A stretch of 21,716 nucleotides of DNA from a virus. The stretch spans positions 1 through 21,716 of IMG/VR virus record IMGVR_UViG_3300042569_002277. The stretch is one strand, 5' to 3'. The first letter of the stretch is position 1, and the number at the start of each line of letters is the position of its first letter. Positions 3,975 to 21,408 of this stretch are shown here, piece after piece. Position numbers and translations under genes: made by a program. The notes under the pieces are model-generated. The model was not told the origin of the DNA. It saw nothing but the letters and a program-made list of their open reading frames with translations, and made no database searches.

Positions 3975-4397
3975 TTAACTGATCTCCGTGCGTCCGTCGC
4001 CAATGTCTCGAGTGTGTACATAACCACTTACTGAGTTGCGCATGGCTTGGTCCTGTTCCCATGTTTCCATCACAACGTGTCTGCAGACATTTTGGAACCA
4101 ACGATCCACAATGTCTGAGTCTGCGTCTGTGGGCTTCATCATGTAGCCGGCCTTGACCAGGCGAGCAATGAATATTTCATTCCAGTCCAATTCAAATGCA
4201 CCTTGGTGCAAGTTGTTGGGATCAATGTCCATGGTCACAATAGCCACATACGGCTCGTTGTTTTCTGTGGCCTTTTGCTTGGCAGACTTTTCAGGTGCCT
4301 TGGGCACACGGATAACTTTTTCTTTTTCCTCTTTAATAGGAGGCGTTTTCTTTTTTGTTAACCAATCCCACATTTCAAATGCTCCATCTAGTATCAT
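3975..4397 (-). CDS. Conserved hypothetical phage protein, 140 (or 132) aa
   Basis: A protein with a Lys-rich N-terminus (WLTKKKTPP...) and a folded part from about residue 45 (EPYVAIVTMDIDPNNL, then GAFELDWNEIFIARLVKAGY), ending in a helix and HTRDIGDG. No enzyme motif is visible; the pattern recalls a small conserved protein of marine T4-like phages. Two starts are possible. The ATG at 4395-4397 overlaps the queE stop as ATGA. The ATG at 4371-4373 (MWDWLTKKK) has GGAG 8 bases upstream. The longer form fits the overlap habit of this genome and the shorter one has the better ribosome site; I cannot decide between them. Confidence 0.75.
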   Translation of the reverse strand: MILDGAFEMWDWLTKKKTPPIKEEKEKVIRVPKAPEKSAKQKATENNEPYVAIVTMDIDPNNLHQGAFELDWNEIFIARLVKAGYMMKPTDADSDIVDRWFQNVCRHVVMETWEQDQAMRNSVSGYVHTRDIGDGRTEIS

Positions 4398-5239: not shown

Positions 5240-5940
5240 AGTCTTGTTACCTTTGTCATTCCTGTCTTCTTAGGATCTTTATTTAGATTAATACTTTGTT
5301 CATGCATTTTAACACGAGTTTCTGTTTTTGTCACCCAACCTGGTAATACTGCATCCAAATAGGCCAAATGCTCTTCAGGACTGGGGTGTGGATCTGCGCC
5401 AGGCTTGGGCCAGTTGTTTACGAACACAGTTTTATCATAGCCTGGTAATATACTGTCTAATACATTGCTGTACAATCGCATGGCATCTCTGTGCAAACTG
5501 ACGTCATCATCAGGTGCAGGTCGTGCCATGAGTTCTACCATGCTGAGAAAACGCCAGGTCAGCCCCGGGCGATTTTCCAAAAGTGTTTTTACTGCCTTGA
5601 TGTATGCCAAGTCTCTGATCAAATACCCTCGTTCATCATAATGATCCTTTAGATACTTAGGTTCGTATATAGGGCAGTTGAAAATATTGCCCAGGGTATG
5701 CCAACGCCCTGAAACATAACGATCATCTCGGTTGAAATCTGTCCAGCATACTATAACAGTGTCGCCAGCACCAAACTGATGCCGCTGATCTGCCTCCATC
5801 ACACTGTTGAAGATGTAGTGATTGCCACCACCGGCTTGGCCCCAATTTTCAAAGTAGTCAAACTCTGGTGCCAAACAATCTGCCCAAGTACTCCAACGAT
5901 AGTTGGTAAAACTGCATCCAAATGCAAACAGTCTTGACAT
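5236..5940 (-). CDS. SGNH/GDSL hydrolase-like protein, about 234 aa
   Basis: A second SGNH-type protein. Block I is AFGCSFT (S10 from the ATG), block II is NWGQAGGGNHYI with Gly and Asn, the third strand is VIVCWTDFNRDD, and the C-terminal DPHPSPEEH carries an Asp-His pair. Beyond about residue 200 it has a basic tail. There is no signal peptide. The start is best taken as ATG 5938-5940, giving TGATG with the B12-radical SAM stop; a GTG one codon earlier (5943) is possible. It lies between the B12-radical SAM gene and queE. It resembles the 240-aa SGNH protein at 2779-3501 in block I and in having an aromatic third strand, so the two may be distant paralogs. The substrate is unknown. Confidence 0.75.
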   Translation of the reverse strand: MSRLFAFGCSFTNYRWSTWADCLAPEFDYFENWGQAGGGNHYIFNSVMEADQRHQFGAGDTVIVCWTDFNRDDRYVSGRWHTLGNIFNCPIYEPKYLKDHYDERGYLIRDLAYIKAVKTLLENRPGLTWRFLSMVELMARPAPDDDVSLHRDAMRLYSNVLDSILPGYDKTVFVNNWPKPGADPHPSPEEHLAYLDAVLPGWVTKTETRVKMHEQSINLNKDPKKTGMTKVTRL

Positions 5941-7946
5941 CACGCCACTAGTTGTTTTTTCTTTACTGAAAAACTGCCTTGTGCTTTGGCAGCACCTGCA
6001 CCTCGGCGTGCACCTTTGGAGTCTCCGCCACTGACGCGATCCACTGTGGCTTTACCAAAGTTTCTACGCCTTGCAAAGTAAAACAACTCCAAGAATCTAT
6101 TGAAACTCATGGTCTTGTCCTCAGGAAAGTCCAAGCGGTACACAGTTTTATTTTCTGTTAGTGGTCGATTGAAACTTAAATATTCCCAGATGTTGAAGTC
6201 CAACTCCAGGTTCATGGGATATTGATTTCTATCATCATATTTGATATAGTAACTTCTCTGCAGTTTCATCAAGCTAGCCAGTAGATTGGCCGGCAAGTTG
6301 TAACGTTCTAGGAACTGTTCCAGATGATCATACAGTTGCTCAACTTGATTTTCCTGGTGCATGTTCATGGACGTGCGATGTATAATGTTCCAGCCATGAA
6401 TTTCTACGCCAATCTTGGGATGATTGATACGGCCAGTCATCATCCAGTTGTTGAAATACATACGAGCTTCTGCTTCTTCTTTCTTTACCCAGTCATTGGT
6501 CATAAAGTGTGCAAACAATTCTTCGTAGTAGTCGTTGTAACTAATACCTAGATACTTGTGGATAAAACGTGCAACCAAGGTGGCAAAGCCGTTGATATGA
6601 AACGTGGTCTGGAACCAACTAAAGATCTGTGCATCCAACATCACTGGAGTGGGCATGTCCTTGGTGCCTGTGATAACGTCAATGCTTTCTTCAATGTGTT
6701 CCACACTATAGCTGCCAGCAAAGTAATCTGTCACAGGTTGGCTGGTGATCTTGAACAGTTTTTTCTGCAACAGGTTCATTTCAGCATTTTCCAACAACTG
6801 TGCTTGGAATGTTGTGATGCCAGTGTGCTGATTCAATTCGTACAAGGCATAGAAGTTTTTCTTCCATGTCTCAAGTGTTTCGCCAGGCAGGCCCAGGATC
6901 AATTCTGTGTATGCAGGAATATTGCGTTGGTCACACAGCTCAAACACTTCGTTGAGTTTGTTCATTTCCATGTTCTTGCGACGAATGTTTTCCAACACAT
7001 CATGGTCCAGACTCTGTACACTCAGTGTGAGACCTTGGTTAAACCCCCGAGCATCCAACAGTTTTTTCACAATGTCGATCACTTCTTTCTTTTGGTTCTT
7101 GGCCCATGCTACACTGAATGTTCTTGGTGAGCCAAACTTTTCCTGCATCTCAATAATTTTGTCAGCTATCATGCCATCACGTTCAGGATACATACCAAAG
7201 TTGGCATCAGTGATTGAGATCCAATCAAAGTTGCGGCGAGCCATCCATTCTAGTTCAGCAAACACACGTTCCAGTTCAAATTTCTTAACCTTGTTGTAGG
7301 TCAAACTACCCCAGTCGCAAAAGGTGCAAGCATAAGGACAACCACGATTGGTTTCCAAAGTACCTTGCCAGGTCACTTCGGGATGGTCTGCAATCATTTG
7401 ATCAAATATGCCCGACAAATACGGACTGGGTACCTGGTCCAAGGTATCAATGCGTTCGGCATCTTGTGTTTTTACAGCAACACCGTTGCGATTGATCAAC
7501 AGTCCAGGCACTGACTCCCAGTCGCCTTGTTCAAAATGTTCTAACACTCGCTTGAATGTTATTTCGCCTTCATAACAGATAACCAGATCCATGAATGGTT
7601 CTTTGACAAAAAGATCAGGATCTGTGATGGCTACTTCGGGACCACCAAACACTGTCAACACACCGGGATTGATTTCCTTGATACGTCGAGCCAGCGCATA
7701 ATTGTAGCGATGATTCCACACGTATGTACTGAACGTGACCATGTTGTTTTGCGCCAATCGTTGTGCCAACGGTTCTAACGCATCTCTACGCCATATCCAC
7801 TCAGTCACTGAAAAATTATCACGCACCCAGGGATCCTGCAGTGAATAACTCCATACTACACCTGCTGAATAAGGCAAGTAGTATGCGTTGAATTCTTTTG
7901 GCCCTTGTTGAAAGTTGGGCTGAACAAAGGCTATTTTATATGTCAT
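5940..7946 (-). CDS. B12-binding radical SAM protein, 668 aa
   Basis: A large radical SAM enzyme with an N-terminal cobalamin-binding domain (about 1-145: SVTEWIW, STYVWNHRYNYALARRIK, VFGGPEVAI, ICYEGEITF) and a radical SAM barrel. Cluster ligands are C203-x3-C207-x2-C210 in NRGCPYACTFCDWGS, followed by ITDANFGM, LSVQSLD and ELILGLPGET, all typical. B12-type radical SAM enzymes mostly methylate unactivated carbon or phosphorus, or rearrange substrates. The roughly 260 residues after about 400 form an aromatic, substrate-specific region, and the last 30 are Gly/Ala/Lys-rich. The DxHxxG cobalamin motif is absent, as in many relatives. The gene sits between a GT-A glycosyltransferase (12-base gap) and an SGNH gene, which suggests sugar or lipid modification (inference). 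Confidence 0.88.
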   Translation of the reverse strand: MTYKIAFVQPNFQQGPKEFNAYYLPYSAGVVWSYSLQDPWVRDNFSVTEWIWRRDALEPLAQRLAQNNMVTFSTYVWNHRYNYALARRIKEINPGVLTVFGGPEVAITDPDLFVKEPFMDLVICYEGEITFKRVLEHFEQGDWESVPGLLINRNGVAVKTQDAERIDTLDQVPSPYLSGIFDQMIADHPEVTWQGTLETNRGCPYACTFCDWGSLTYNKVKKFELERVFAELEWMARRNFDWISITDANFGMYPERDGMIADKIIEMQEKFGSPRTFSVAWAKNQKKEVIDIVKKLLDARGFNQGLTLSVQSLDHDVLENIRRKNMEMNKLNEVFELCDQRNIPAYTELILGLPGETLETWKKNFYALYELNQHTGITTFQAQLLENAEMNLLQKKLFKITSQPVTDYFAGSYSVEHIEESIDVITGTKDMPTPVMLDAQIFSWFQTTFHINGFATLVARFIHKYLGISYNDYYEELFAHFMTNDWVKKEEAEARMYFNNWMMTGRINHPKIGVEIHGWNIIHRTSMNMHQENQVEQLYDHLEQFLERYNLPANLLASLMKLQRSYYIKYDDRNQYPMNLELDFNIWEYLSFNRPLTENKTVYRLDFPEDKTMSFNRFLELFYFARRRNFGKATVDRVSGGDSKGARRGAGAAKAQGSFSVKKKQLVA

Positions 7947-7958
7947 CCTGTATTTAAG

Positions 7959-8792
7959 TCATTTAGCAAAGTGCCGGTGCGGATTGTCAAATTGTACCAT
8001 TTGCTTATTGACATCATTCTGGGCTAGTTTTTCCCAAGGATCCTGTGTGCCTTTAAAAATGTTTTGAAAGAATTCAGTGCTAATACCTTGATTGTGCATG
8101 TATGTGGCCAACTTAGCACAGTCTTGATGCCTTAATTCAATTTGTGTTCGACTGTGAAAATCTGCTTCGTCAAATGGGCGTCCTTCTAGTGATGCACGTT
8201 CACGGAATGTGTCATCATTGTTGTTGCCTGTGATGTCAGCACGGTCATGCAACACCCAAACAGGTATGCGTTCCCAGATATCCAGCATGTAGGCCTGTTG
8301 ACTGAGCCAGCCATCTTGTACTGAATGCGGTGAGATATAACCCAGCAGTTCATACCATTTACGTGGCAGGATAGGGAAGATACTGTAGGGATGATCCAGG
8401 TGAGTATGAAATGCCAGCAGTTTGAACTGACCTTCACGGTTCATGATCTCTGTGTCCCAACCTTGTGTTTCCATCACAGCATCATCGTTCCAGATCATTA
8501 GCCAGCGAGCATCTGTGTGTTCAGCCATCTTGTTGTTGTAGATGTGCAGCCTATGATAGCCTTGACGTTCAAACTGCATGGCAGTGTACGTGAGTTCTTG
8601 TTCGTCCAACCACGGTTGTAGTTCCGTCTTGAAGTATTCAGTGCCTGCCGTATCATCGTCGTCAAACGCAAACATCAACTGCAAACGTTCTGGATGATCT
8701 GCAAATTTGATCAGGCTGCGAACACTGCGACCAAGGCTTTCGGTGCGGCCTCGAGTGGCCAATAACATGGCAATATCATACTCAGGTGTCAT
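7959..8792 (-). CDS. GT-A fold glycosyltransferase-like protein, 277 aa
   Basis: A putative glycosyltransferase of the GT2-like GT-A class. The N-terminal strand and loop IAMLLATRGRTESLGRSVRSL is the nucleotide-sugar entry typical of GT2 enzymes (usually P-T-R-x-R). FAFDDDDTAG follows, then WNDDAVM (101-107) with an Asp-Asp pair in the place of the metal-binding DxD. The second half (WYELLGYISPHSVQDGWLSQQ) resembles the acceptor side of such enzymes. There is no transmembrane helix, so it is soluble. Its ATG overlaps the queD stop by 4 bases (ATGA), so it may be expressed with queD from the candidate promoter at 9341-9369. It probably transfers a sugar in the cytoplasm; donor and acceptor are unknown. 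Confidence 0.75.
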   Translation of the reverse strand: MTPEYDIAMLLATRGRTESLGRSVRSLIKFADHPERLQLMFAFDDDDTAGTEYFKTELQPWLDEQELTYTAMQFERQGYHRLHIYNNKMAEHTDARWLMIWNDDAVMETQGWDTEIMNREGQFKLLAFHTHLDHPYSIFPILPRKWYELLGYISPHSVQDGWLSQQAYMLDIWERIPVWVLHDRADITGNNNDDTFRERASLEGRPFDEADFHSRTQIELRHQDCAKLATYMHNQGISTEFFQNIFKGTQDPWEKLAQNDVNKQMVQFDNPHRHFAK

Positions 8793-9322
8793 GCAAACAA
8801 GTCCTCATTCCATTCTCTATGACCTTCGCGGAAAGCCATGTTAGCCTGTGTCTCACGTACTTCTACACGATAGCACCAAAGACGTTCGGCTTCTCCAGCA
8901 CCCCACATGTCAGGAATGTAAACACCGTTGACATACCGGTACAATTGATCTGCCAATCCTTCACAGCCCAATTTAGGCAGGATGGTTAATTTAGCAAGAT
9001 TACGGCGTTGCATTTCCTGGTAGAACTCCAGTTCAGGATCGTCTTCTGCCACCAGCAGGGTATGATCAAATTGGCTTTCCAACACTGACTTGAGTTCTTT
9101 GAGACCGCCATAATCAGCAGCCCAGTTACGTGCGTCCAAGTTGTCTGTTCCAAAGTAGAACTTCATTGAAAATGAATAGCCGTGAATCAAATTGCAATGA
9201 CTGTCTGCCCGCCACTGACGATATGCACATGGAAATGCATCGTGGTACTCTTTTGTACTGGTGTATTTGTATTGTCTTGCTGACATCCAACGGTGACCTA
9301 CTTCGTATTGATCTTGTGACAT
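8789..9322 (-). CDS. queD: QueD-like 6-carboxy-tetrahydropterin synthase (variant zinc motif)
   Basis: A T-fold enzyme that would turn 7,8-dihydroneopterin triphosphate into 6-carboxy-tetrahydropterin, the step between FolE and QueE. Family landmarks are HCNLIHG (C43 is the catalytic Cys position), NWAADYGGLKELKS (as in DFxxLK), FDHTLLV (Asp-His pair), GCEGLADQLY and a C-terminal VRETQAN (acidic pterin anchor). The usual ligands FxAxH and HGH are altered to FPCAY (Y34) and HGY (Y49), leaving H42 and H47. I recall this SHC...HGY form in cyanophage and alphaproteobacterial homologs, so it is probably a real subfamily. The ATG has AGGAG 9 bases upstream. The gene has its own candidate promoter. 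Confidence 0.85.
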   Translation of the reverse strand: MSQDQYEVGHRWMSARQYKYTSTKEYHDAFPCAYRQWRADSHCNLIHGYSFSMKFYFGTDNLDARNWAADYGGLKELKSVLESQFDHTLLVAEDDPELEFYQEMQRRNLAKLTILPKLGCEGLADQLYRYVNGVYIPDMWGAGEAERLWCYRVEVRETQANMAFREGHREWNEDLFA

Positions 9323-11363: not shown

Positions 11364-11477
11364 TTAAGTTAATTCTACCACTCTATATTGGCTAGCAGGA
11401 TAGTGTTCCTGCAACCACTCCAACAACCCTGGTTCCCAAGGCAGTCGAATCTCGCCTGTGATGTTTGTGATAATCAT
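11364..11477 (-). CDS. Small predicted protein, 37 aa, coupled to folE
   Basis: A short frame reads MIITNITGEIRLPWEPGLLE, continues WLQEHYPASQYRVVELT, and stops at TAA 11364-11366. Its ATG (11475-11477) overlaps the folE stop as ATGA, the junction seen throughout this genome, and the next gene starts 10 bases after its stop, so it fills what would otherwise be a 120-base gap. The composition is protein-like: a beta strand, a Trp-Glu-Pro turn, an amphipathic helix (LLEWLQEHY) and a second strand. There is no strong ribosome site, so translation probably depends on ribosomes ending folE. Function unknown. Confidence 0.65.
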   Translation of the reverse strand: MIITNITGEIRLPWEPGLLEWLQEHYPASQYRVVELT

Positions 11478-12169
11478 CTTGGTGCAAACTCCTGTTGTAG
11501 CTTGATATTGTCCATGAACTCTTTTTTCACACTGTCATCGTCTTTGAACGCACCACGCAACACAGTGGTTTGTGTTAGGCTGGAGTGTGCCATGATGCCG
11601 CGATTCTCACAGCATCCATGCACTGCTTGAATGTAAACGCCCACATCTTTGGATGCAGTTGCTGCCATGATCTCATTGGCTATGTCAATGCACAGTTCTT
11701 CCTGTAGTGTACCACGACGGGCACACCATTGTGCAATGCGGGTGTACTTACTAAGACCAATCAGTTTCTCTGCCGCAATAATGCCAATATAAGCAACCCC
11801 AGCAACGGGTTGGTGATGATGACTACACATACTACGAAGTTCACTGCGAACCACGAGCATGCCTTCGTAACGGTCTGCTGAATCATTTGGAAACGCTGTG
11901 CAATCTGGTGCTGGTTCATATCTTCCTGCCATTATTTCGTTGAAATACATTTTAGCAAGACGTCTTGCTGTGCCCTTTGAGTTAGGATCGTTTTCTCTAT
12001 CAATCAGCAGTGCATCCAACACACCCTCAAAAGCCACAGTGGCTTCGTCAATGAGTTTTTCTTTGATGGCATCACTCATATAATCGCTGATGTTGTCGCC
12101 GGCCCAGAAGCGGCGGCCTCGGGCAGTCATTTGTTCTCTAAGTACTTGTGATAGATTCTTTTCTTGCAT
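11474..12169 (-). CDS. folE: GTP cyclohydrolase I
   Basis: The enzyme converts GTP to 7,8-dihydroneopterin triphosphate, the first step of both folate and 7-deazaguanine synthesis. The catalytic half is complete: CSHHHQPVAG (zinc ligands C115, H118), IGLSKYTRIAQWCARR, LQEELCIDIANEI and HGCCENRG (third zinc ligand C186). The N-terminal helices with KGTARRLAKMYFNEI are also usual. The length (231 aa) matches homologs. With queD and queE in the window the product most likely feeds preQ0-type base synthesis rather than folate. The ATG has GGAG 6 bases upstream and lies close behind a good promoter (12187-12215). It is coupled to the 37-aa gene. Confidence 0.95.
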   Translation of the reverse strand: MQEKNLSQVLREQMTARGRRFWAGDNISDYMSDAIKEKLIDEATVAFEGVLDALLIDRENDPNSKGTARRLAKMYFNEIMAGRYEPAPDCTAFPNDSADRYEGMLVVRSELRSMCSHHHQPVAGVAYIGIIAAEKLIGLSKYTRIAQWCARRGTLQEELCIDIANEIMAATASKDVGVYIQAVHGCCENRGIMAHSSLTQTTVLRGAFKDDDSVKKEFMDNIKLQQEFAPR

Positions 12170-12186: not shown

Positions 12187-12215
12187 ATTGTACACTATTT
12201 AGATCTTGCAGTCAA
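12187..12215 (-). promoter_or_regulatory. Sigma70-like promoter upstream of folE
   Basis: On the minus strand TTGACT (12210-12215) and TACAAT (12187-12192) are separated by exactly 17 bases; each matches 5 of 6 consensus bases. The predicted start near 12180 gives a leader of about 11 bases containing GGAG. The -35 overlaps the stop codon of the upstream glycosyltransferase-like gene. This is the best host-type promoter in the window and suggests early expression of folE and the genes after it by unmodified host polymerase. Confidence 0.65.
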
Positions 12216-13243
12216 GTGGTTGAATAATCAAACTCTAATATAGCATTGAAAACCTGTCGTCTGTTTGTTCGAAAGTACTCATGCAGCAGTTCAAAGTTGG
12301 CTGCTAATCTTGGTTGCAGTTGTTGACGCAGTGCTTGACAATCTGCCAAACTGTATTGATCATTGAGTTGGCTGATTAGATCAAATACGGATTGATGTCT
12401 TTGGGTTTCATCCAGTATGGCATCATATTGGTGACCACCAAGTATGTCATCAAACGTATCAAACCCCAATTCCCTGACATGTTTGACCAATCCTGGCACA
12501 CCATACCATATGGGAATCTGACGTTGCATTATGGCCTTCCAAGTCTTTTCAGTAAGAAACACACTGCGCCATTGTCTCGTATTGCCGCAGTATTCAGTTT
12601 GACTACTGGTTTCAGCTGCGATATTGAACAAACAAGAATGAAATTGGAAATTGCTGATATCAAACTCTCGCACTCGATCTGTCAACACACCGTCTACTAA
12701 CAATGGCAAATCTACACCTACTACGTCACAATACTGATCAAGCCCGCCTTGGACACCACTGCCAAAACTCAATCTAACTGTGTCTAGTCCGATGTTGTCC
12801 AAAAAGAAACGTGCAAGTCGGGCTCGGTTCAGTGTGGGCCTGCGTAACAAACATAAAAACTTGCGATCAAGAGCAATGTCAAAGTTGTAGTCAAGTTGAT
12901 CTAACCGGTACTCACTGCGATTGATCAACCATGTAGTGAAACAAACTGCAGGATAACGCAATTGATCAACATTTATGTGTGCATTGAACAACACCATGAA
13001 TCGGTCTGGATGTGTTTGCAATAGTATATCAGTCAATGGCTCGATGTCGTCTGGCCCAAATCCCTCATCCAGGAATGACAGTATAATTTTGCTTTGAGCA
13101 AACTCTTCAACAGTGATACCACTGCGAGTGCAATCCTTCACAATTTGGCTTGCACAATAATCCGGTGTATGCATTTTTTCCGTCTGGAAATGCGAAGCAC
13201 CGTAATGCAACATACCTGGCCTATTACGAATTATGCAACTCAT
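12212..13243 (-). CDS. Glycosyltransferase-like protein, TEKTWK family, 343 aa
   Basis: A probable GT-B type transferase. Its clearest block is FLTEKTWKAIMQRQIPIWYG (229-248), then HVRELGFDTFDD (255-266). The TEK...P...G arrangement recalls the nucleotide-sugar site of GT10 fucosyltransferases and similar enzymes. An upstream block KFLCLLRRPTLNRARL (128-143) is typical of the same group. The 348-aa protein at 15846-16892 shares both blocks, so they are paralogs or relatives. The N-terminal half (KIILSFLDEGFGPDDIEPL, RFMVLFNAH) is consistent with a Rossmann-like domain. There is no membrane segment. Its start overlaps the compact DegT-like gene by 4 bases. The sugar and acceptor are unknown. 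Confidence 0.7.
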   Translation of the reverse strand: MSCIIRNRPGMLHYGASHFQTEKMHTPDYCASQIVKDCTRSGITVEEFAQSKIILSFLDEGFGPDDIEPLTDILLQTHPDRFMVLFNAHINVDQLRYPAVCFTTWLINRSEYRLDQLDYNFDIALDRKFLCLLRRPTLNRARLARFFLDNIGLDTVRLSFGSGVQGGLDQYCDVVGVDLPLLVDGVLTDRVREFDISNFQFHSCLFNIAAETSSQTEYCGNTRQWRSVFLTEKTWKAIMQRQIPIWYGVPGLVKHVRELGFDTFDDILGGHQYDAILDETQRHQSVFDLISQLNDQYSLADCQALRQQLQPRLAANFELLHEYFRTNRRQVFNAILEFDYSTT

Positions 13244-13833
13244 TCAACAATGCGTATTTGTCTGCAATCTGGATAAACAACCGCACGTGGCGGTTGACTG
13301 ATGTAATCTCTCAACAGTTCTAGTCCACGTTCAGCTTCTTCAATGGTAGGTCGGTAATGATAGCCCACGCGGAATTCTTGCTGTGCTACCCAAGGGCTTA
13401 CAATTAGATCACGCCCGTCATATCGCATGCGCAATAAGGTTTGGTATGCAGCCTCATCATCCAACAATATGGCACCACCACGACCGATGGCCAAAGGTTT
13501 GTCATGTCCAAAGCTCACGCATTGCATTTGTCCAGCACGATACATGTTGGATTCTAGCCTACGAGCACTATCCCAAATGCGTGTTTTAAGAATTTGATAC
13601 TCTCCTACCCAACGTTGCCATTCATGGTCCAGATATTGATATCTAATGCCCAGCTTGTGCATGAGCATCGGTATACTCAAGTAAGTGTACGGTGTAAATG
13701 TACACTCTCGAATCTGATCATATCGCAAACACAGTTCAATGGCATGAGTGCAACAATCAGTCATGATTGCACGTGGTGCACCTGTGAATTCAGCCAGTGC
13801 AGTTTCAAATTTTAATATGGTATCAAAGCTCAT
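13240..13833 (-). CDS. Compact DegT/DnrJ/EryC1/StrS-type PLP protein, 197 aa
   Basis: It resembles the sugar aminotransferase family (fold type I PLP), here in very short form. The opening FETALAEFTGAPRAIMTDCC matches the family's FE..LA.Y.GA..A..V.SGT. WDSARRL holds the PLP-ring Asp (D88), and CVSFGHDKPLAIGRGGAIL holds the presumed Schiff-base Lys (K112), with the normal 24-residue Asp-Lys spacing. Family members run about 360-400 aa. Here roughly 40 residues are missing before D88 and the C-terminal domain is nearly absent. The frame is intact and coupled on both sides by ATGA overlaps, so it is not a simple broken fragment. It may be an aminotransferase, an isomerase or a non-catalytic relative. 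Confidence 0.7.
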   Translation of the reverse strand: MSFDTILKFETALAEFTGAPRAIMTDCCTHAIELCLRYDQIRECTFTPYTYLSIPMLMHKLGIRYQYLDHEWQRWVGEYQILKTRIWDSARRLESNMYRAGQMQCVSFGHDKPLAIGRGGAILLDDEAAYQTLLRMRYDGRDLIVSPWVAQQEFRVGYHYRPTIEEAERGLELLRDYISQPPRAVVYPDCRQIRIVE

Positions 13834-14189
13834 TGACTTAAATGGTCCTTTTTAACTTCTCTTATATTGCAACCAAGTTTTTCGGCCATGGAGTTTTTCA
13901 ATGCAACACGCCGGTTGTTCCAGTCGCGTATTTTAATAGCACGTCGGCCTATTTCTTCTAATGATAAATTTGCTTCTGTCCCTCTTTTGAGGTCTGCTTC
14001 CAGTGACCATATTTCTGAATGTATGTCATACAAGTGAAGCAAATCAAAAGTAATAGATTCAGTATCGAATTGATCCAGTTGAGTTTTATAGAATTCTAAT
14101 TCGGCAGCATTAGATCCAGTCTTGTCAAATTTTAATTTGGCAATACTGTATCGGTCTACCAATTCAATCACAGGAAAAATAATAGTCAT
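13830..14189 (-). CDS. Small helical protein of glycan-type clusters, 119 aa
   Basis: An all-helical, charged protein: VIELVDRYSIAKLKFDKTGS at the start, a central LYDIHSEIWSLEADLKRG, then EIGRRAIKIRDWNNRRVALK. The IWxLE...IxIRDxNxxRV pattern resembles small uncharacterised proteins that travel with LPS or capsule genes (DUF6165/DUF4254-like, by memory). No catalytic residues can be assigned. It is visibly A+T-rich compared with the housekeeping-like genes of the window. It lies between an SGNH-like gene and the compact DegT-like gene, coupled to both by 4-base overlaps, so it probably assists the same pathway. Confidence 0.65.
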   Translation of the reverse strand: MTIIFPVIELVDRYSIAKLKFDKTGSNAAELEFYKTQLDQFDTESITFDLLHLYDIHSEIWSLEADLKRGTEANLSLEEIGRRAIKIRDWNNRRVALKNSMAEKLGCNIREVKKDHLSQ

Positions 14190-14842
14190 AGTTGATTGTA
14201 CAAATGATCAGCCCAAGCAACATGTCCTGCTGAATTAAAATGTAAGTTTGTATTGCTGATGTTTAATTGACGTTCAATTATGAAATCTAACGCAAAATTG
14301 CTACTATTTAATGTTAGGCCAGCAACGCTTTCCTTACTCAAAAAGAAAGCAATGCACTTGGCTGGACATGTATATTTTACACTGTCATGATAACTTTGTA
14401 AATTGTACATTTGCTCGTACTCAGAATAGTAATTTTCAAACCATGTGTCATAAAATTCTTTACCACTAGGTACAGGTTTTGATTGTGGTACCCAATAATT
14501 TTTTGTAATGTTTTTAAAATTTTTATTTCTAAAAAATTTTTGAGTAGGTGTTGTGTACACATGCCCCGTGCCAATAGCATCAACATGTTTGGTATTATTT
14601 TGGTCAAAAACAAACGATTTTCTTGAAGGGTGACTCCATCCCACAACACACAAGTCTTGGGATTGAATGTATTTCTTATTTTCTAAGTAACATGAGTATA
14701 TAAAGAAATTATCAGCCGCTGATGCTGCAAAGTTTTTTACATCGGCACCAAGTCTGTTACCCAACAATGATGGCCAACCTTGATGGTCATTGTCAAGGTC
14801 AAATGGCAAACTTAGACTATCACCAAACACCCATAGTGTCAT
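14186..14842 (-). CDS. SGNH-like protein with altered catalytic Asp, 218 aa
   Basis: A third SGNH-type protein. Block I is WVFGDSLSLPF with S9, the middle has the NFAASAADNFFIYS stretch (block II-like, Ala in place of the usual Gly) and strand LCVVGWSHPSRKSF. The C-terminal block reads HFNSAGHVAWADH, with N203 where the family normally has Asp and H207 kept. The enzyme may therefore work with a Ser-His dyad, or be inactive or binding-only. No signal peptide is seen. The gene is A+T-rich. It follows the SPASM radical SAM gene by a 4-base overlap and precedes the small helical protein, inside the glycan island. It could remove or add an acyl group; the substrate is unknown. Confidence 0.68.
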   Translation of the reverse strand: MTLWVFGDSLSLPFDLDNDHQGWPSLLGNRLGADVKNFAASAADNFFIYSCYLENKKYIQSQDLCVVGWSHPSRKSFVFDQNNTKHVDAIGTGHVYTTPTQKFFRNKNFKNITKNYWVPQSKPVPSGKEFYDTWFENYYSEYEQMYNLQSYHDSVKYTCPAKCIAFFLSKESVAGLTLNSSNFALDFIIERQLNISNTNLHFNSAGHVAWADHLYNQL

Positions 14843-15867
14843 ACAAACAACGTCTCCAAAGTTTCTGGATTATCCAGTGCTTTTTGTATTTGAATGTTGC
14901 TGATGTTAGGTCGACATGGTTGACAAAACTCAACTCTTGTGCGATGATAAATTTCATAGTGTCGGGTGTTCAACCACGAATCTCTAAAGTCTCCTGTATC
15001 CCAATTTGCAAGTTCAAATTGTGGATTGCCTTTGCCCTCACAACACACATACACTTTACCGTCAGCACAAAACACTGGGAATTGAAACATCTGATGGCAT
15101 TTTTTGTAATTGCGTGGTAGTGTTTTATTTGTGTTAACATGATATGGAACCTGATATTGATCACTTAACTTGGCTATCAACGCAATAGTTTCTTCAGTGA
15201 TCAAATATGCCTGGTTGTTGACAATAACTGGACGAAAATAAATTTTACGACCGCCTACACGTTTAACCAACACAAATAAATCATTCATGGCTTCAACGTT
15301 GTCATTCAAGGGATTGAGCAAACATTTGAAGTCTACGTTAACTCCTACATTGATCAAGTTTTGTGCATTTTCAATCACTTGATCAAACAAACTTTCTCGT
15401 GTAAGACTGCGCCGAATGGTTTCATACAAGTCCTTGGTACCAGAATCTATGTCTATTCCAATCCAGGAAATTTTACGCAATTTGTCAATCGACACATTGT
15501 CAAGCAAACAATTCAAGTTGCTGCCATTGGTAGTAATACTGGTTAAAAACCCCAGATCAATAGTGTGTTCAATTACACTTTCATAGTTGGTTAATACAGT
15601 TGGCTCTCCACCGCCGGGATAGGTAATAGTATGCAGACTTCCATAACTGCGTGGACTGTGTTCTCGCCAAGAGACCAGTTGATCTAATAGGGCAATGTAT
15701 TCTGTATACTTTTTTTGCACAGGGTACGCACGACGAAACTCAGCTGAATTACAATAATAACAATCTTGATTGCACACATTGGTCAGATCAATGTCTACCT
15801 GAGCAGGTATAATCTTCATTGTATTTTGATTCTGCATCCAATGTGCTATTTCAGCGTGGTTATACAT
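14839..15867 (-). CDS. Radical SAM protein with SPASM-type C-terminus, 342 aa
   Basis: A radical SAM enzyme with cluster ligands C32-x3-C36-x2-C39 (NVCNQDCYYC) and SAM-binding YPGGGEPTV (83-91). ITTNGS and a mid-barrel DFKCLLNPL follow. The C-terminal part has C257, C267, C275/C276 and FCQPC (C315, C318), arranged as in SPASM/twitch auxiliary Fe-S domains. Such enzymes modify peptides, act as dehydrogenases on sugars (as in aminoglycoside pathways) or mature other proteins. The context, SGNH and glycosyltransferase-like genes, favours a sugar or small-molecule substrate (inference). The ATG has a weak ribosome site and overlaps the upstream gene by 22 bases. Confidence 0.85.
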   Translation of the reverse strand: MYNHAEIAHWMQNQNTMKIIPAQVDIDLTNVCNQDCYYCNSAEFRRAYPVQKKYTEYIALLDQLVSWREHSPRSYGSLHTITYPGGGEPTVLTNYESVIEHTIDLGFLTSITTNGSNLNCLLDNVSIDKLRKISWIGIDIDSGTKDLYETIRRSLTRESLFDQVIENAQNLINVGVNVDFKCLLNPLNDNVEAMNDLFVLVKRVGGRKIYFRPVIVNNQAYLITEETIALIAKLSDQYQVPYHVNTNKTLPRNYKKCHQMFQFPVFCADGKVYVCCEGKGNPQFELANWDTGDFRDSWLNTRHYEIYHRTRVEFCQPCRPNISNIQIQKALDNPETLETLFV

Positions 15868-16892
15868 GTTACAAGATTATTTTGATATTCAGTACCAAAT
15901 TCACCATTGAAAAATTTTTTACTATTAGATGTTCTACGTTGTTCAGTATCTTTATATATGGATTCAAGATCTTGTGATAACAATTTGTCAAGCACTTGGT
16001 GTATTTTTTTTATACGTATCTGCCAATCAGGCTCATTATCGTAGTGGGCATGATTAACAATGTCATCGAATGTATCTACGCCCGAGCTTCTTAGGTGTGC
16101 CACAGCATTTCGATGTCCTACAATTAGAAATAATTGTGCGCTGGCCACAGGCTTCCAGGTTTTTTCAGTGACAAATGTATTTGACATATCAGTCTCAGTA
16201 ACCAAGTGAATGTAACTGTCGGTGCATGCTGGATGGGTGATATCCCAATCGGCTCTAATTTTATTTTCTTGATCTAACTGATCTCGATTTGGTAATTGAT
16301 GTTTAATTGATTCCCACTGTTGCGCAATCTCATCAGGTAAGTCTGTGCGCATTTGCATTTCATGTGGATCATCTAATTCTGGTTGAGAGTGCAAAGTACA
16401 CAAATAGTCATCAAAATCAGCACGTGATTTCAGTAACAAATAATTGTAAACTCTGTGCCACCTCAAGGTACCATTTAAGCATGATAGTTTATATTTTTTA
16501 CGCAGGTGGGTAGTTGTCGGTTTTTGAAATTGATACTTGACTAAATGATAATGTGCAGGGCGGTATAGCAATTTTGGGCGAGATTTGTGCTGAGTAATGT
16601 CATGAGTTAACATAACAAAATTTATCTCCAATTGTTCAAACACATTGTAAAGGGGGTAATGCCCCATTCGTTCTTTGCTGAAATCCGCAATTACCAATGA
16701 ATATTTTTTTAATTCTGATAGTTGTTTTAAAATTTCCTTAGATGAATACCCTGCATCATCGGAAGGATATGGAAAAAAACTAAAATAAAAAATTGTTTTA
16801 TCACCAATATTATAAACTCTTCCTTGATCAATGCTAATATCTGAATCGGCCAACTTGGCCATGACATACAACAACCGGTCAAGTTCGGTCAT
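15846..16892 (-). CDS. Glycosyltransferase-like protein, TEKTWK family, 348 aa
   Basis: A relative of the 343-aa protein at 12212-13243. Shared blocks are FVTEKTWKPVASAQLFLIVG (240-259) and HLRSSGVDTFDDI (266-278), preceded by KYKLSCLNGTLRWHRVYNYL (133-152), where the usual family pattern is a strand followed by N-R-x-x-R-x-H-R. The N-terminus (ISIDQGRVYNIGDKTIFYFS, LVIADFSKERMG) suggests a Rossmann-like domain. No transmembrane helix is visible. The gene is clearly A+T-rich. It overlaps the GalE stop by 4 bases. A GT-B transfer reaction is likely, but the match is to a loosely defined family, so the activity is inferred. Confidence 0.7.
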   Translation of the reverse strand: MTELDRLLYVMAKLADSDISIDQGRVYNIGDKTIFYFSFFPYPSDDAGYSSKEILKQLSELKKYSLVIADFSKERMGHYPLYNVFEQLEINFVMLTHDITQHKSRPKLLYRPAHYHLVKYQFQKPTTTHLRKKYKLSCLNGTLRWHRVYNYLLLKSRADFDDYLCTLHSQPELDDPHEMQMRTDLPDEIAQQWESIKHQLPNRDQLDQENKIRADWDITHPACTDSYIHLVTETDMSNTFVTEKTWKPVASAQLFLIVGHRNAVAHLRSSGVDTFDDIVNHAHYDNEPDWQIRIKKIHQVLDKLLSQDLESIYKDTEQRRTSNSKKFFNGEFGTEYQNNLVTCITTLK

Positions 16893-17842
16893 CTAGAATA
16901 CCATGCCCAGGCATGCTGAATCATGTCATCCAAGGTGTAATGGAGCCAAGCACCTGCTACCAAGCCAAATTTGGCAGCACTGGCTGTAAGCTGCGGCGGA
17001 TCTCCTGGTCTGGCTGCACCCATAACAACTTTTAATTTCTTTCCAGTCACACGTTCAGCAGCGGCAATGATTTCTCGATTGCTGACGCCGTTGTTGCTGC
17101 CCAGGTTGTATACTCCTGGGGGAACATCATGATAGATTGCTAGACTGTGTGCTCGTGCTATGTCATTCACATGCACATAATCACGAACACAAGAGCCATC
17201 TGGAGTTGGAAAGTCTACACCATTCAGTGTGAATTCCGCATCATCTCTAATGGCTTCCAGTACTCTGGCAATGATGTGTGTGGCACCGGGTTCTTGTCCA
17301 TGCCGTGCCTGAGGATCAGCACCGCAGGCATTGAAGTAACGAAAACTCACATAATTGAGGCCATAGGCACGATGGTATGATTCCAGCATCATGTCCACCA
17401 TGAGTTTGCTTTGTCCATATGGTGACACGGGCTCAGCTGGATCAACTTCGTGTATGGGTAGCATCACAGGCTCACCATAGGTGGCTGCACTGCTTGAGTA
17501 CACAAACTTGGTTTTTGGCAGTGCTTTTCGAATCAGTGTCAATAATTCAAAAGTTTTGACCACATTGTTTTCGTAGTACTCAGCAGGATTGGCTATGCTA
17601 GGTCCAACAAGACTGGTGCCAGCACAGTGTACCACAGCATCAGGTCGTTCTAGTACAATGGCACTGAGTGCATGTGTGCTGGCAAAATCTTCCTGTATAA
17701 ATCTATCACACACACCAGTAAGGTGTAAGGGCAAGGGCCGGCGATCAATACCAATCACACGTTCTCCTGCATCTTTTAGCATCAATGCAGTTTGGCCACC
17801 AATGTAGCCCGAAACACCTGTTATCACTGTGATTTTTTTCAT
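16889..17842 (-). CDS. galE: UDP-glucose 4-epimerase
   Basis: An extended short-chain dehydrogenase that interconverts UDP-glucose and UDP-galactose (or the N-acetyl forms), supplying donors for glycosyltransferases. The NAD site is GVSGYIGG (9-16, GxxGxxG). The active site is SSSAATYGEP with S118 and YGQSK with Y142 and K146. FRYFNACGADP (sugar-nucleotide loop), RDYVHVNDIARAH and YNLGSNNGVSNREI are all textbook GalE. Length is 317 aa, slightly short of about 338 because of a trimmed C-terminus. It is less A+T-rich than its two neighbours. The start overlaps the methyltransferase stop by 4 bases. Confidence 0.93.
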   Translation of the reverse strand: MKKITVITGVSGYIGGQTALMLKDAGERVIGIDRRPLPLHLTGVCDRFIQEDFASTHALSAIVLERPDAVVHCAGTSLVGPSIANPAEYYENNVVKTFELLTLIRKALPKTKFVYSSSAATYGEPVMLPIHEVDPAEPVSPYGQSKLMVDMMLESYHRAYGLNYVSFRYFNACGADPQARHGQEPGATHIIARVLEAIRDDAEFTLNGVDFPTPDGSCVRDYVHVNDIARAHSLAIYHDVPPGVYNLGSNNGVSNREIIAAAERVTGKKLKVVMGAARPGDPPQLTASAAKFGLVAGAWLHYTLDDMIQHAWAWYSR

Positions 17843-18525
17843 TTTTCAAAAATTAATCTTATATTTCCATTGATAATTTCATCAACACAATCATTTATTA
17901 GTACTTCTACCAGTAAAAAATTTATTGTTAGATTATTCAAAACGGTTTTTACATATTGTGTCAATTGTTCCGGAGTTGGCGAATTAGAAGAAAACAATGT
18001 CTGAAGATCTTGTGCGCTAGTGTTTTCTACCATTCTCATTGCATTAAAAGTTATAAAACCCCTGCCACCTGGTTTGACAACATTATAAAATTCTAAAATT
18101 CTTTTTTCAAACTCTATCAATGATACAAAATGCACTGCATTTATTGAAAATACAGATTCGTAGGTATCTGTGTGCCCTTTGCTAAAATCAGAGTCAAAAA
18201 AATCAAATTCGTCTGCCAGATGATTATTTGGCGTTGGATCTATTCCGTGTATATTGGGGATTAGTTTTTTAAATAAATTGGCACCACATCCAATATCTAC
18301 TATAACTTTGGGGGTTTTTTCCAACAAAAATTCCAAGTAATACAATGAAGCGGCATAGAACACACTAAACATTGCTCGATGTCTCGGAGTCAAATTACTA
18401 TCTATAATATACTCACTGGTATAGGAAAAACTACATTCAACCTGTTTGCCAAATGCTGTGTGTATTTTTTCTTCCCAATACTGCCCAGATTTTTCTTTAA
18501 AGATAGCTTCATTGTATGAATTCAC
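17839..18525 (-). CDS. SAM-dependent methyltransferase-like protein, 228 aa
   Basis: A class I methyltransferase by pattern. Motif I is VIVDIGCGANLF (75-85), an acidic residue follows at GIDPTP (D96), and VFSINAVHFVSLIEFE and NVVKPGGRGFITF give motifs IV and post-IV. The N-terminal 70 residues are a helical cap; the C-terminal 50 include an odd Leu/Asn-rich segment. The gene starts at GTG (18523-18525), overlapping the upstream stop as GTGA; no nearby ATG would keep the N-terminus. It is A+T-rich. Such enzymes in glycan islands often methylate sugar hydroxyls or lipid heads; the acceptor here is unknown. Confidence 0.75.
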   Translation of the reverse strand: MNSYNEAIFKEKSGQYWEEKIHTAFGKQVECSFSYTSEYIIDSNLTPRHRAMFSVFYAASLYYLEFLLEKTPKVIVDIGCGANLFKKLIPNIHGIDPTPNNHLADEFDFFDSDFSKGHTDTYESVFSINAVHFVSLIEFEKRILEFYNVVKPGGRGFITFNAMRMVENTSAQDLQTLFSSNSPTPEQLTQYVKTVLNNLTINFLLVEVLINDCVDEIINGNIRLIFEK

Positions 18526-19724
18526 AATTCAACCTTTGTCACATGGTATTTGGCTTCAGCCACGTGGTCACGATATCTCGCACCCGCCCTATTCCAATGC
18601 TCGCCCGCACCAGTGAGAATATCAACAATACGATCAACAGTGCCATTGTTCCAGTCAGATATGAGACCCATGTTGTGATGTGGTTCTCGCAGGAGATTTT
18701 GCATCTTGTGATATGCATCATCAATGCTCCACGGAACGTACAATCTGTTGGGATCGTTGGCAAAAGTTTCGGGGAATGACCGGTATGCTGGATATAGCAC
18801 ATTGCAACCAAGAGTGTCAGCCTCACTAACTGTATTGCTGACCCAATCTTGGAGAGCACAGTTGAACAAAACTCTAGTGTTGTTGAGATGAGCATAGTAT
18901 TCGTTCTTGGTGATGTTGTCGTAGATTTTTAACTTGCCGGCCGCTTCCATAGCCCTGGCACGTGTCACATACTCTGGGTTGTTGCTACGCAGTGGGCCAC
19001 CTGAGTAGATTGCAAACTCACAAGGCTCAGATGTAAGTTCGCCATACATTTCAATAAGGTCCATGAAGAAGCCAGGTTGCTTTTCTTGATCAAAACGTGC
19101 GGCAAAGCCCACACGGCGCGGACGATCTGCAAATGGTCGGATGTTGGCACTGCCGCCAATGCGTTCTAACACTTCCTCTTTGCCAAATGCAAGTCCACTG
19201 ATGTTGTAGATTGGAGCAGTCCACCCGGCAATACGCATGTGTGCAACCATCTCTTCGTTTGTGGCCAACACGCCTGTGACAAACTGGTTAACCATGCGCT
19301 CATATGTGCTCATCCAGCCTGCCATGCCCCACACATGCACAAAATCATCAGGGTCAATGGCCTGTGCCAAACAGCGTACATAGATTCTAGGACGCTGTTC
19401 TGGGGGAATCTGGTCCATGATGTATGGCAAACTCTCAATGCCCGGTTGAAACATGTCTTCAAAGTAGATGACATCTTCCGCAGTGACTTCACCATTCTTC
19501 ATCAGCTGAACCAAGTTCATCATTTGGCTCATGCTAAAGTAACTGCGACCATGTGCATCCAGCACTTGCCCAACACTGATGCTTTGTGTGTTGTCAATAG
19601 TGGTACCGGGCACGTAGACCACATCCAGGCCACGGCGTTCAAACACACGCCGATTCCATTCAGTTAGTTGTAGAGTGTATCTTGCTTCATACGACTCCAA
19701 GCCCATGTAGTACAGCTTTCTCAT
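18522..19724 (-). CDS. GT-B glycosyltransferase (family 4-like), 400 aa
   Basis: A putative glycosyltransferase of the GT-B, Glycos_transf_1 type. The C-terminal domain shows RVGFAARFDQEKQPGFFMDL, the KLKIYDNITKNEYYAHLNNT strand and helix, and CALQDWVSNTVSEADTLGCN, where the E of SEADTLG takes the usual place of the nucleotide-sugar-binding Glu. The N-terminal half has alternating strands (LDVVYVPGT, RIYVRCLAQ, GVLATNEEMVAHMR). It resembles a glycosyltransferase I recall from T4-like cyanophages. The ATG has AAGGA 8 bases upstream and follows a consensus extended -10 promoter, so it may start its own transcript. It is followed without a gap by the methyltransferase and galE. Confidence 0.82.
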   Translation of the reverse strand: MRKLYYMGLESYEARYTLQLTEWNRRVFERRGLDVVYVPGTTIDNTQSISVGQVLDAHGRSYFSMSQMMNLVQLMKNGEVTAEDVIYFEDMFQPGIESLPYIMDQIPPEQRPRIYVRCLAQAIDPDDFVHVWGMAGWMSTYERMVNQFVTGVLATNEEMVAHMRIAGWTAPIYNISGLAFGKEEVLERIGGSANIRPFADRPRRVGFAARFDQEKQPGFFMDLIEMYGELTSEPCEFAIYSGGPLRSNNPEYVTRARAMEAAGKLKIYDNITKNEYYAHLNNTRVLFNCALQDWVSNTVSEADTLGCNVLYPAYRSFPETFANDPNRLYVPWSIDDAYHKMQNLLREPHHNMGLISDWNNGTVDRIVDILTGAGEHWNRAGARYRDHVAEAKYHVTKVEL

Positions 19725-19744
19725 TTAATGTTCCTTAAACATCT

Positions 19745-19753
19745 ATTATAACA
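19745..19753 (-). promoter_or_regulatory. Extended -10 promoter (TGTTATAAT)
   Basis: On the minus strand the 31-base gap contains TGTTATAAT, a perfect sigma70 extended -10 (TGnTATAAT). Transcription would start near 19738, about 14 bases before the glycosyltransferase ATG, with AAGGA in the leader. There is no convincing -35 at 16-18 bases, which an extended -10 can do without. Confidence 0.6.
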
Positions 19754-19755
19754 GA

Positions 19756-20733
19756 TTAATTAATAAAACCTAGTTCATTTATCTTGGAAATAACCAAATT
19801 AGCATATATTTTATGCGTTTCTGGTCCAGGATGCAGTTTGTCGTTTCCAAGATCGTGCCACCCGTCTTGAAAGTCTGTGCCAAATTTACCATGATAAAAA
19901 ACAAAATTTTTATATTTTGACATAGCCAACGATAATTCTATATTAGCATGAATTCCGACTAATATTAATTTTGCGCCGACCTTGTTACAAAAATTAATGA
20001 CTTGTTCTATTGCTGATATGCACTCGTAAATTCTAGTATCAGAATCAAATTGTAAAATATTCAATTCTGGAAATTTATCACTATTTTCTTTTAAATTTTT
20101 GGTATACACATGATAAACTTTTTTGCAATTAAACATAGTAATTCTATGGTAAGTACTTACACCAAATACAACAACATCATCCTTTTGTATGTCAGATCGA
20201 AGAATTTGACTAGCCGACCATAAAACTGAAGCTCCGGGATAAGCTAGTACACTAACAGGAAGATTTAACTTGTTAGATAAAAGATTGGCATATCTTTCAT
20301 GAATAGCGACCCCTGCTCCAAAAGTAGTACTACATCCAGCAACCCATAACTGAGTAGCATTACTTTTTCTCTGTTCTTCGACTGATAAATGTATCGGAAC
20401 AGATAATACTTCATTTATTTTAATATTATTTAGATTTGCTGCTATGCCAAGGTAATGTTCAGTAAGCCAAGCCAATGAATATCGATCCTCAGTTGTTTTT
20501 CCATCACTCCAGTTAGTTGGTGGAAAGTAAGTTATTTCTGTTGCAGACATCAATAACCGAAAAAAAGATTGTACTCCGTCTAAGTCCCCCAGACTGGTAT
20601 ACACAGTATTGACATGAGGGTCTGATACATTTTCCTGGGTTATTAAATATGCAGTTGAATCATTTTGCAATGCATATTTACTAAGATAAGTGCCAGTATC
20701 GCCTACCAATAGATGGAGTCTATGCTTTCTCAT
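19756..20733 (-). CDS. SGNH hydrolase-like protein with extra N-terminal domain, 325 aa
   Basis: A two-part protein. Residues 1-125 form an unrecognised domain starting LHLLVGDTGTYLSKYAL and containing a GDLDGVQSFFRLLM stretch. From about 128 there is an SGNH domain: WVAGCSTTFG (S135), AYPGASVLWSASQI, VVVFGVSTYHR and the C-terminal NDKLHPGPETH (D298, H301), the intact Asp-His pair. No signal peptide. The gene is markedly A+T-rich. It ends 31 bases before the GT-B gene's start and begins inside the stop of the 74-aa gene (4-base overlap). Alternatives are a lipase-like or acyltransferase role; a sugar O-acetyl function fits the neighbourhood. Confidence 0.75.
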   Translation of the reverse strand: MRKHRLHLLVGDTGTYLSKYALQNDSTAYLITQENVSDPHVNTVYTSLGDLDGVQSFFRLLMSATEITYFPPTNWSDGKTTEDRYSLAWLTEHYLGIAANLNNIKINEVLSVPIHLSVEEQRKSNATQLWVAGCSTTFGAGVAIHERYANLLSNKLNLPVSVLAYPGASVLWSASQILRSDIQKDDVVVFGVSTYHRITMFNCKKVYHVYTKNLKENSDKFPELNILQFDSDTRIYECISAIEQVINFCNKVGAKLILVGIHANIELSLAMSKYKNFVFYHGKFGTDFQDGWHDLGNDKLHPGPETHKIYANLVISKINELGFIN

Positions 20734-20954
20734 GTGCGGTGGCCTGCAAAGCGACGAGTGTCCTCATCCCACATGTTCTTGGCATACTTGCCAGCATGCC
20801 ACTTGCTGAACTGCTGCCAGGCATAAGTTTTAAAATTGTATAGATCCGCTTCGTTATAGCGGTATCCATAGTCCTGACAGAACTCTTGGAATATTTCTAA
20901 GTCTTCAAAAATCTCTGTAACTTTGGGGTTGGGTTTGAATGTGGGTCTTGCCAT
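20730..20954 (-). CDS. Conserved small phage protein, 74 aa
   Basis: A small soluble protein: MARPTFKPNPKVTEIFEDLE, then EFCQDYGYRYNEADLYNFKT and a basic tail KYAKNMWDED. This pattern matches a conserved small protein of marine T4-like phages that I remember, function unknown. The ATG at 20952-20954 is the start because AAGGAG lies 6 bases upstream. An upstream TTG at 20975 in the same frame would put that ribosome site inside the gene and is rejected. It begins 10 bases after the stop of the upstream gene and ends in a 4-base overlap with the two-part SGNH gene. Confidence 0.8.
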   Translation of the reverse strand: MARPTFKPNPKVTEIFEDLEIFQEFCQDYGYRYNEADLYNFKTYAWQQFSKWHAGKYAKNMWDEDTRRFAGHRT

Positions 20955-20964
20955 GTTGTTCTCC

Positions 20965-21408
20965 TTAGATGACAATGTTGTTGAGAGGTCTAGTGATTTC
21001 GTATCGGATCAGGGCACCGTTTTCTCCGTCTTCAGAGACTTCGATCCACACTGCTCGGTTGGGATAGCGACTTGCTATTTGTATATATAGGTCGTCTGCC
21101 ATCATCTCACAACTTTTGTAGTCTAGTTGAAGGGTGTTGTCTCGGTAGAGGTTTTCCAGCCAGCGTTTGAATTGGATGAATTCAATGTCGCGATCATTGT
21201 GTACAACATCAGCCCACACCCGGAAATGAAAGATGTGACGATGAGGATTAGCAAGAAACGAAACATCATATTCATCACCTGTGGCCAGTGCGGGATCTGT
21301 GGCAGCCGCAGGATATCTGTGCATGCCTTCTTTTTGAAACGTGACCCAAATTTTTCTTTGTGCATGTTGCATTACTCGGTCTACCACTTCACGTTGTTCT
21401 TGGTTCAT
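20965..21408 (-). CDS. Conserved phage protein, possible divergent QueD-like T-fold, 147 aa
   Basis: No family is certain, but the order of elements imitates 6-pyruvoyl-tetrahydropterin synthase/QueD. WVTFQKEGMHRYP (H30) occupies the FxAxH strand, NPHRHIFHFRV (H56, H58) the HGHNY strand, IEFIQFKRWLENLY the DFxxLK helix, and DYKSCEMMADDLYIQIASRYP the PTxENxA helix. VWIEVSEDGENGALIRYE takes the place of the final xVxETxxxxAxY strand. This could be a zinc protein or a non-enzymatic T-fold. The catalytic Cys of QueD before the HxH is absent. Similar proteins are familiar from T4-like cyanophages. The ATG overlaps the upstream stop by 4 bases. Function unknown. Confidence 0.72.
   Translation of the reverse strand: MNQEQREVVDRVMQHAQRKIWVTFQKEGMHRYPAAATDPALATGDEYDVSFLANPHRHIFHFRVWADVVHNDRDIEFIQFKRWLENLYRDNTLQLDYKSCEMMADDLYIQIASRYPNRAVWIEVSEDGENGALIRYEITRPLNNIVI

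Follow-up and report, generated by a model that had tools for sequence, protein, structure and literature searches.

The 21,716-base virus fragment analyzed here (IMG/VR record IMGVR_UViG_3300042569_002277, positions 1 to 21,716; hereafter the window) carries a run of sugar-related genes that we take, with moderate confidence, to form the sugar branch of an operon for 7-deazaguanine hypermodification of phage DNA, in which a GT-B glycosyltransferase (18522..19724) would act as the base glycosyltransferase. The evidence comprises gene content, gene order, co-occurrence, conserved catalytic residues and the predicted folds of two proteins. An open reading frame check placed all of the sugar-related and 7-deazaguanine genes of the window named below at the coordinates given, on the minus strand.

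Association of GT-B with 7-deazaguanine genes

In relatives of the window, a 531-aa protein bearing the transglycosylase signature DSGGFQ (DpdA531) sits upstream of p147 (20965..21408; phrog_17812), a small QueD-like protein that is a constant partner of DpdA and GT-B. A DpdA-like gene was present in 14 of 16 large related contigs, and the window stops just before its position; in one contig with a 92% identical GT-B (L004), the gene was located ~0.5 kb upstream of p101. DSGGFQ was invariant across the DpdA family. DpdA531 gave a moderate profile match (probability 88%, E 3e-6) to a second transglycosylase family, which reaches KVP40-like Vibrio phages and is annotated as queuine tRNA-ribosyltransferase in phage X1. 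The CxCxxC-H zinc motif expected of tRNA transglycosylases was missing from both families. DpdA2 was reportedly defined in Vibrio phage nt-1, a KVP40 relative. The DNA of nt-1 contains 7-deazaguanines (PMC6884629).

Since the scans with sugar genes favoured this clade, a DpdA-based scan was added that was not selected on sugar genes. The GT-B and DpdA scans each yielded at least about 600 stretches. Of the matches listed from the DpdA-based scan that had 8 kb or more of downstream sequence, p147 and GT-B were each found in 36 of 36, folE in 35 of 36 and queE in 28 of 36. All scans were then pooled into a census of 82 non-redundant loci that extend from DpdA to queE. As detected with profiles built in part from the same clade, GT-B, p147 and folE (GTP cyclohydrolase I; 11474..12169, PF01227) each lay inside the DpdA-queE interval in 81/82 loci, and lower counts were obtained for a pyridoxal phosphate (PLP) enzyme (53/82), GalE (50/82), queD (50/82), a GT-A-like glycosyltransferase (41/82), a B12-dependent radical S-adenosylmethionine (SAM) enzyme (24/82), a second radical SAM enzyme (15/82), TEKTWK transferases (13/82) and a DUF6165-like protein (12/82). 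The 53 loci bearing the PLP enzyme all had GT-B, 46 had GalE and 40 had GT-A, while the other genes turned over; 24 loci of the census had p147-GTB-folE without any optional gene. The shared order was DpdA - p147 - GT-B - (GalE - PLP) - folE - queD - GT-A - queE. Thus p147, GT-B and folE are the constant members of the module, GalE, PLP, queD and GT-A are frequent ones, and the radical SAM enzyme together with the DUF6165-like protein, TEKTWK, SGNH-like proteins, methyltransferase and B12 radical SAM are exchangeable. In the window, queD (6-carboxytetrahydropterin synthase; phrog_2389, PF01242) occupies 8789..9322, its frequent neighbour GT-A (phrog_14945) 7959..8792, and queE (7-carboxy-7-deazaguanine synthase; phrog_2076, 1e-52) 4394..5239.

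A preliminary description of the window had treated the folE-queD block as no more than a spacer, a reading that the locus comparison overturned: folE, queD and queE belong to the same module as GT-B, which speaks for DNA as the target, at least of GT-B. QueC is needed only for preQ0-derived bases; none was called in the window and a weak one was found in 1 of 16 relatives. This near absence suggests that the base is in a 7-carboxy or decarboxylated form and is not preQ0.

Among the matches listed from the DpdA-based scan, loci lacking the PLP gene often carried, upstream of DpdA, genes for an HldE-like nucleotidyltransferase and a GalE-like protein; these loci were named "marine-type" for their mutual resemblance, not their habitat. 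Two loci without the compact PLP enzyme (L021:12560-13480 and L029:13113-14018) carried in the PLP slot a 306-aa protein without a Pfam match, which, judged by eye, could be another PLP enzyme.

The GT-B/p147 pair was also found in the folE/queE clusters of five other phage lineages, mostly beside a transglycosylase, which was drawn from two different families. The gene orders were DpdA-GT-p147-..-queE in Paride (of the Paride/PA5oct lineage), queD-folE-TGT-GT-p147-queE in ACP17, folE-GT-TGT-p147-queE in Xanthomonas phage X1, queE-queD-folE-TGT-p147-GT in BUCT-ZZ01 and p147-GT-folE-queE in Phosso, whose DpdA gene lies at another place in the genome (GT, the GT-B glycosyltransferase; TGT, transglycosylase). 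In phiST, Rhizobium I1_18, Bakedbeans and Ahp1, p147 adjoined folE without GT-B, which places p147 in the base pathway and makes GT-B an added step. The p147 profile matched QueD (probability 91%, E 1e-6, from small alignments). In the Menderavirus Ps15, folE and queC/TGT/queE flank a gene for myo-inositol-1-phosphate synthase (PMC9025141), which is a further sugar-type gene in a 7-deazaguanine cluster.

GT-B retained GT4-type motifs and matched Pfam weakly (PF13692, E 0.024, 15.3 bits against a cut-off of 27). Across the six lineages R210, K215 and E301 were invariant, as was an N-terminal E-x2-E-x-RYT motif; the acidic pair read D293-x7-E301 in the near GT-B family and E-x7-E in Paride. The GT-B of BUCT-ZZ01, a complete genome, was 66% identical. 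A PhiXhv-12 glycosyltransferase (24%) was set aside as a negative outgroup, having deacetylase and GlmS-like neighbours and no transglycosylase annotated nearby.

Organization and recurrence of the gene run

Nine genes from GT-B (18522-19724) to TEKTWK transferase 2 (12212-13243) overlap at all 8 junctions, by 4 or 22 bases, and folE starts 42 bases past the latter. Upstream of GT-B lie SGNH-like protein 1 (19756..20733), which is poorly conserved with almost no relatives in the fetched loci, and p81 (20730..20975), a small protein often situated between p147 and GT-B and found inside 48/82 loci. G+C content was 35-37% across the optional genes (13501-16500 and 19501-20500) against 44-46% in the flanks, which suggests recent exchange.

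Scans with TEKTWK transferase 2 and the radical SAM gene recovered the same gene order in more than 30 viral contigs of up to 374 kb, and 69 loci came from a broader scan with the radical SAM gene; the run recurs in many uncultured freshwater phages. The contig L003 has the same order from GT-B to HIT, plus additional genes, with identities of 49-95%, and in L009, which comes from another sample, the stretch from TEKTWK transferase 2 to exo is 100% identical to that of the window; for these two reasons the run is not an assembly join. Comparison of the window with GenBank phages by megablast gave zero matches. The radical SAM enzyme had no relative, at the sensitivity used, among 84,980 bacterial and archaeal species genomes, and a single match (23%) in phage records. 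The tight coupling of the sugar genes proposed in the preliminary description was therefore confirmed by nine genes overlapping on one strand in an order repeated in dozens of viral contigs, and the conditions under which the proposal would have had to be abandoned, namely an order unique to one assembly, a contig join or purely bacterial chromosomal homologs, were not what was found. The description of the phage as T4-like has support through relatives, the T4-type capsid protein Gp23 being present in 8 of the 16 large related contigs and not in the window fragment itself. None of 16 related contigs contained psbA, which gives no support for a cyanophage host.

Enzymes of the sugar genes

The GalE-type UDP-hexose 4-epimerase (16889..17842) was identified by PF01370 (181 bits) and TIGR01179 (276.3 bits, above its cut-off of 262.3), and the optional SAM methyltransferase (17839..18525), with relatives in only two loci, by PF08241 (22.1 bits, cut-off 21.2). 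These two assignments, and those of the radical SAM and DegT-type PLP enzymes, made earlier by inspection, were upheld by hidden Markov model searches; the SGNH labels were not, as no Pfam or NCBIfam SGNH or GDSL match was obtained, and they denote motifs recognized by eye. SGNH-like protein 2 (14186..14842) is optional, with relatives in a minority of loci, as is SGNH-like protein 3 (5236..5943; 20/82 loci).

The compact PLP enzyme (13240..13833) is predicted to be a DegT-family sugar aminotransferase (PF01041, 52.6 bits, cut-off 19.8). D88 and K112 were invariant in 24 sequences, and the structural model (pLDDT 91.5) matched WlaRG, GDP-perosamine synthase and ArnB with Z of 16-18 over ~188 residues. 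At 197 aa against 360-440 aa in the matched sugar aminotransferases, it did not have the full-length two-domain form. The large-domain fold and the catalytic Asp and Lys are those of DegT/DnrJ/EryC1/StrS aminotransferases such as these three; unlike them, the protein is short, and only about half of each reference chain was matched. In single-cell genomes of SAR11 and Prochlorococcus, a mini DegT often occurred in a cassette of cupin - methyltransferase or formyltransferase - PLP - GDP-mannose-dehydratase-like genes (L040-L049), neighbourhoods that are consistent with amino-sugar synthesis. The enzyme was not found on plasmids. In Synechococcus phage S-SCSM2R (L038) the compact PLP gene is directly followed by a radical SAM gene, and the locus also holds glycosyltransferases, 2-oxoglutarate oxygenases and a gene annotated as inosamine amidinotransferase; this last gene matched phrog_25854, as did L004:12878-13939, which has relatives in L006-L008.

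TEKTWK transferases 1 (15846..16892) and 2 (12212..13243; optional, with relatives in L003-L008 at 76-88%) matched no Pfam family, and a profile search against PDB sequences gave nothing useful (E 1.3). In the first protein, E233, E243 and K244 were invariant. Its model had a GT-B fold (pLDDT 88.6), with Z of 11.2-10.6 tied among T4 BGT/AGT, EXT2 and GT10 FucT; by its predicted structure it is a GT-B enzyme, and the ties choose no single family.

The optional radical SAM enzyme (14839..15867) is SPASM/twitch-like and matched PF04055 (53.3 bits, cut-off 29.5); CxxxCxxC and a C-terminal Cys were invariant in 23 sequences. Its scores against the viperin and N-twitch NCBIfams, 57.8 vs 180 and 41.5 vs 170 bits, were both under cut-off. 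It travels with the DUF6165-like small protein (13830..14189), assigned by alignment and by weak PF19662 matches in 10 of 22 relatives (best E 0.011). BMP-like lipoprotein genes, recognized by eye, lay near the radical SAM gene in three loci of other backbones (L073, L087, L090). The optional B12-dependent radical SAM enzyme (5940..7946) resembles KedN5-type C-methyltransferases most closely, matching NF033712 over its N-terminal half only at 259.6 bits, below the cut-off of 700.

Farther along the window are an HldE-C-like nucleotidyltransferase (3498..3974; phrog_7878, 4e-30; rfaE_dom_II 81.9 bits, below the cut-off of 181.5) and a DUF6071 protein (2779-3501; 36.0 bits, cut-off 27) that had earlier been labelled SGNH. 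A phage-encoded Bax1-I (TMBIM) membrane protein at 10454-11152 was present again in several relatives.

Proposed pathway and alternatives

FolE, QueD and QueE make 7-carboxy-7-deazaguanine, and in the proposed pathway they would supply it to the phage. The DpdA-like transglycosylase would swap DNA guanine for this base or a derivative, p147 would adjust the base as a QueD-like enzyme, and the constant GT-B (18522-19724) would add a hexose to it. UDP-hexose would be provided by GalE; in this clade, the 197-aa PLP enzyme may aminate a keto-sugar to an amino sugar, and the GT-A, TEKTWK, radical SAM, methyltransferase and SGNH-like proteins may extend or edit the glycan. We infer the action of GT-B on DNA, the acceptor atom, the identity of the sugar and the role of every optional gene. 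If the optional genes serve to diversify a coat that protects against host nucleases, their variation between phages would be anticipated. We propose only tentatively the more specific form, in which DNA 7-deazaguanine carries an amino sugar or short oligosaccharide made by the DpdA-linked GT-B, the on-board GalE and the 197-aa aminotransferase, and exchangeable radical SAM, TEKTWK, methyltransferase and SGNH-like genes diversify it.

The virion, the DNA and the host envelope had all been suggested beforehand as targets of the sugar, and while the locus comparison favours DNA for at least GT-B, virion or host glycans stand as a rival. The products of the island might place sugars on tail fibres or on host polysaccharide, with timing as the only reason for joint transcription with the 7-deazaguanine genes, an alternative that we regard as unlikely but deserving of serious weight. 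Glycosyltransferases, GalE, PLP, radical SAM and SGNH-like proteins are what surface-glycan loci typically contain, structural genes adjoin the radical SAM/DUF6165 pair and TEKTWK genes in loci L070-L078, host compact PLP enzymes stand beside a GDP-mannose-dehydratase-like gene and a formyltransferase, and a jumbo-phage survey takes cyanophage glycosyltransferase clusters as surface-polysaccharide genes (PMC7824862). Surface decoration nevertheless leaves unexplained the tie of GT-B to DpdA, p147, folE and queE (81/82 loci), which also holds in five other lineages without the rest of the island. In another reading, GT-B and p147 would form a DNA module and the PLP/radical SAM/TEKTWK/SGNH cassette would make an unrelated glycan and use the site as an insertion hot spot; the strong variation of the optional genes, their low G+C content (35-37% vs 44-46%) and the 24 loci with p147-GTB-folE and no cassette gene are in line with such a division; in most freshwater loci, however, GalE and PLP keep their place between GT-B and folE, and translational coupling extends over the whole run, and we consider the division improbable. 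A still smaller probability attaches to a different base in DNA, for instance a hydroxymethylated pyrimidine, as the substrate of GT-B, in the manner of the T4 glucosyltransferases. The TEKTWK model does resemble T4 BGT/AGT, but it resembles other GT-B enzymes alike (Z ~11, tied), and the constant partner of GT-B is a transglycosylase; moreover, the complete genome of BUCT-ZZ01 encodes no thymidylate-synthase-family (PF00303) protein, which argues against a hydroxymethyl-pyrimidine acceptor in that phage. Modification of tRNA rather than DNA, to give a glycosylated queuosine-like base, seems equally remote: the X1 and Menderavirus genes are annotated as queuine tRNA-ribosyltransferase, but both transglycosylase families lack the zinc motif, and the second extends to KVP40-like phages, which are related to nt-1, a phage with modified DNA.

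The assignment of the island to a DNA 7-deazaguanine pathway also has to be set against several findings that weigh on the other side. The window itself stops short of dpdA. The DpdA531 family gave zero matches to Pfam, PHROG and PDB, and its putative identification as a transglycosylase draws on the DSGGFQ motif, the moderate profile match (88% probability) and the neighbourhood. A QueD-like decarboxylase, DpdL, was reportedly named in phiST by Cui in 2023; if p147 were a 7-carboxy-7-deazaguanine decarboxylase of the DpdL type, the carboxyl group, as the obvious acceptor, would no longer be available. The link of GalE and PLP to the DNA module is confined to one clade, and compact PLP enzymes are also found in S-SCSM2R, Flavobacterium phage immuto, SAR11 and Prochlorococcus, in glycan clusters that have no DpdA close by. 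There is likewise no DpdA near the radical SAM/DUF6165 pair beside the structural genes of L070-L078, and these genes may serve another glycan.

Relation to known systems and implications

PLP and radical SAM enzymes are used by phages M6 and Vi01 for thymidine hypermodification on hydroxymethyl-uracil; both enzyme classes recur here, and the acceptor in those phages is a different one. As in the phage 7-deazaguanine DNA modification systems described previously (DpdA/DpdA2, FolE, QueD, QueE, QueC; Hutinet 2019, PMC6884629), folE, queD, queE and, in relatives, a DSGG[FL]Q transglycosylase gene form one operon; unlike in those systems, just 1 of 16 relatives has a QueC call and GT-B, GalE, a sugar aminotransferase and further glycosyltransferases lie within the operon. 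Like the T4 alpha- and beta-DNA glucosyltransferases, the phage GT-B is proposed to act after replication, adding a sugar to a modified base in the DNA, whereas its proposed acceptor is 7-deazaguanine and not hydroxymethylcytosine, its motifs are GT4-type and its partner is a transglycosylase. Polymorphic glycosyltransferases, nucleotidyltransferases and epimerases are likewise found in the cyanophage and jumbo-phage polysaccharide clusters of T4-like phages, which PMC7824862 interprets as surface polysaccharide; the run described here differs in lying between dpdA and queE. In the passages covered, that survey mentions the deazaguanine system of PA5oct and not its glycosyltransferase. A literature search, with many journals outside it, returned no report of a DpdA-linked glycosyltransferase or of glycosylated 7-deazaguanine in DNA.

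The association alone gives a functional context to the GT-B and p147 families, mostly annotated as hypothetical, and means that the folE-queD-queE block should no longer be read as a spacer. Because the GT-B/DpdA pair is common (at least about 600 stretches per scan) and occurs in cultured phages, the prediction can be tested on virion DNA. If true, phage DNA would bear sugars on purines as well as pyrimidines, by way of a base-exchange route.

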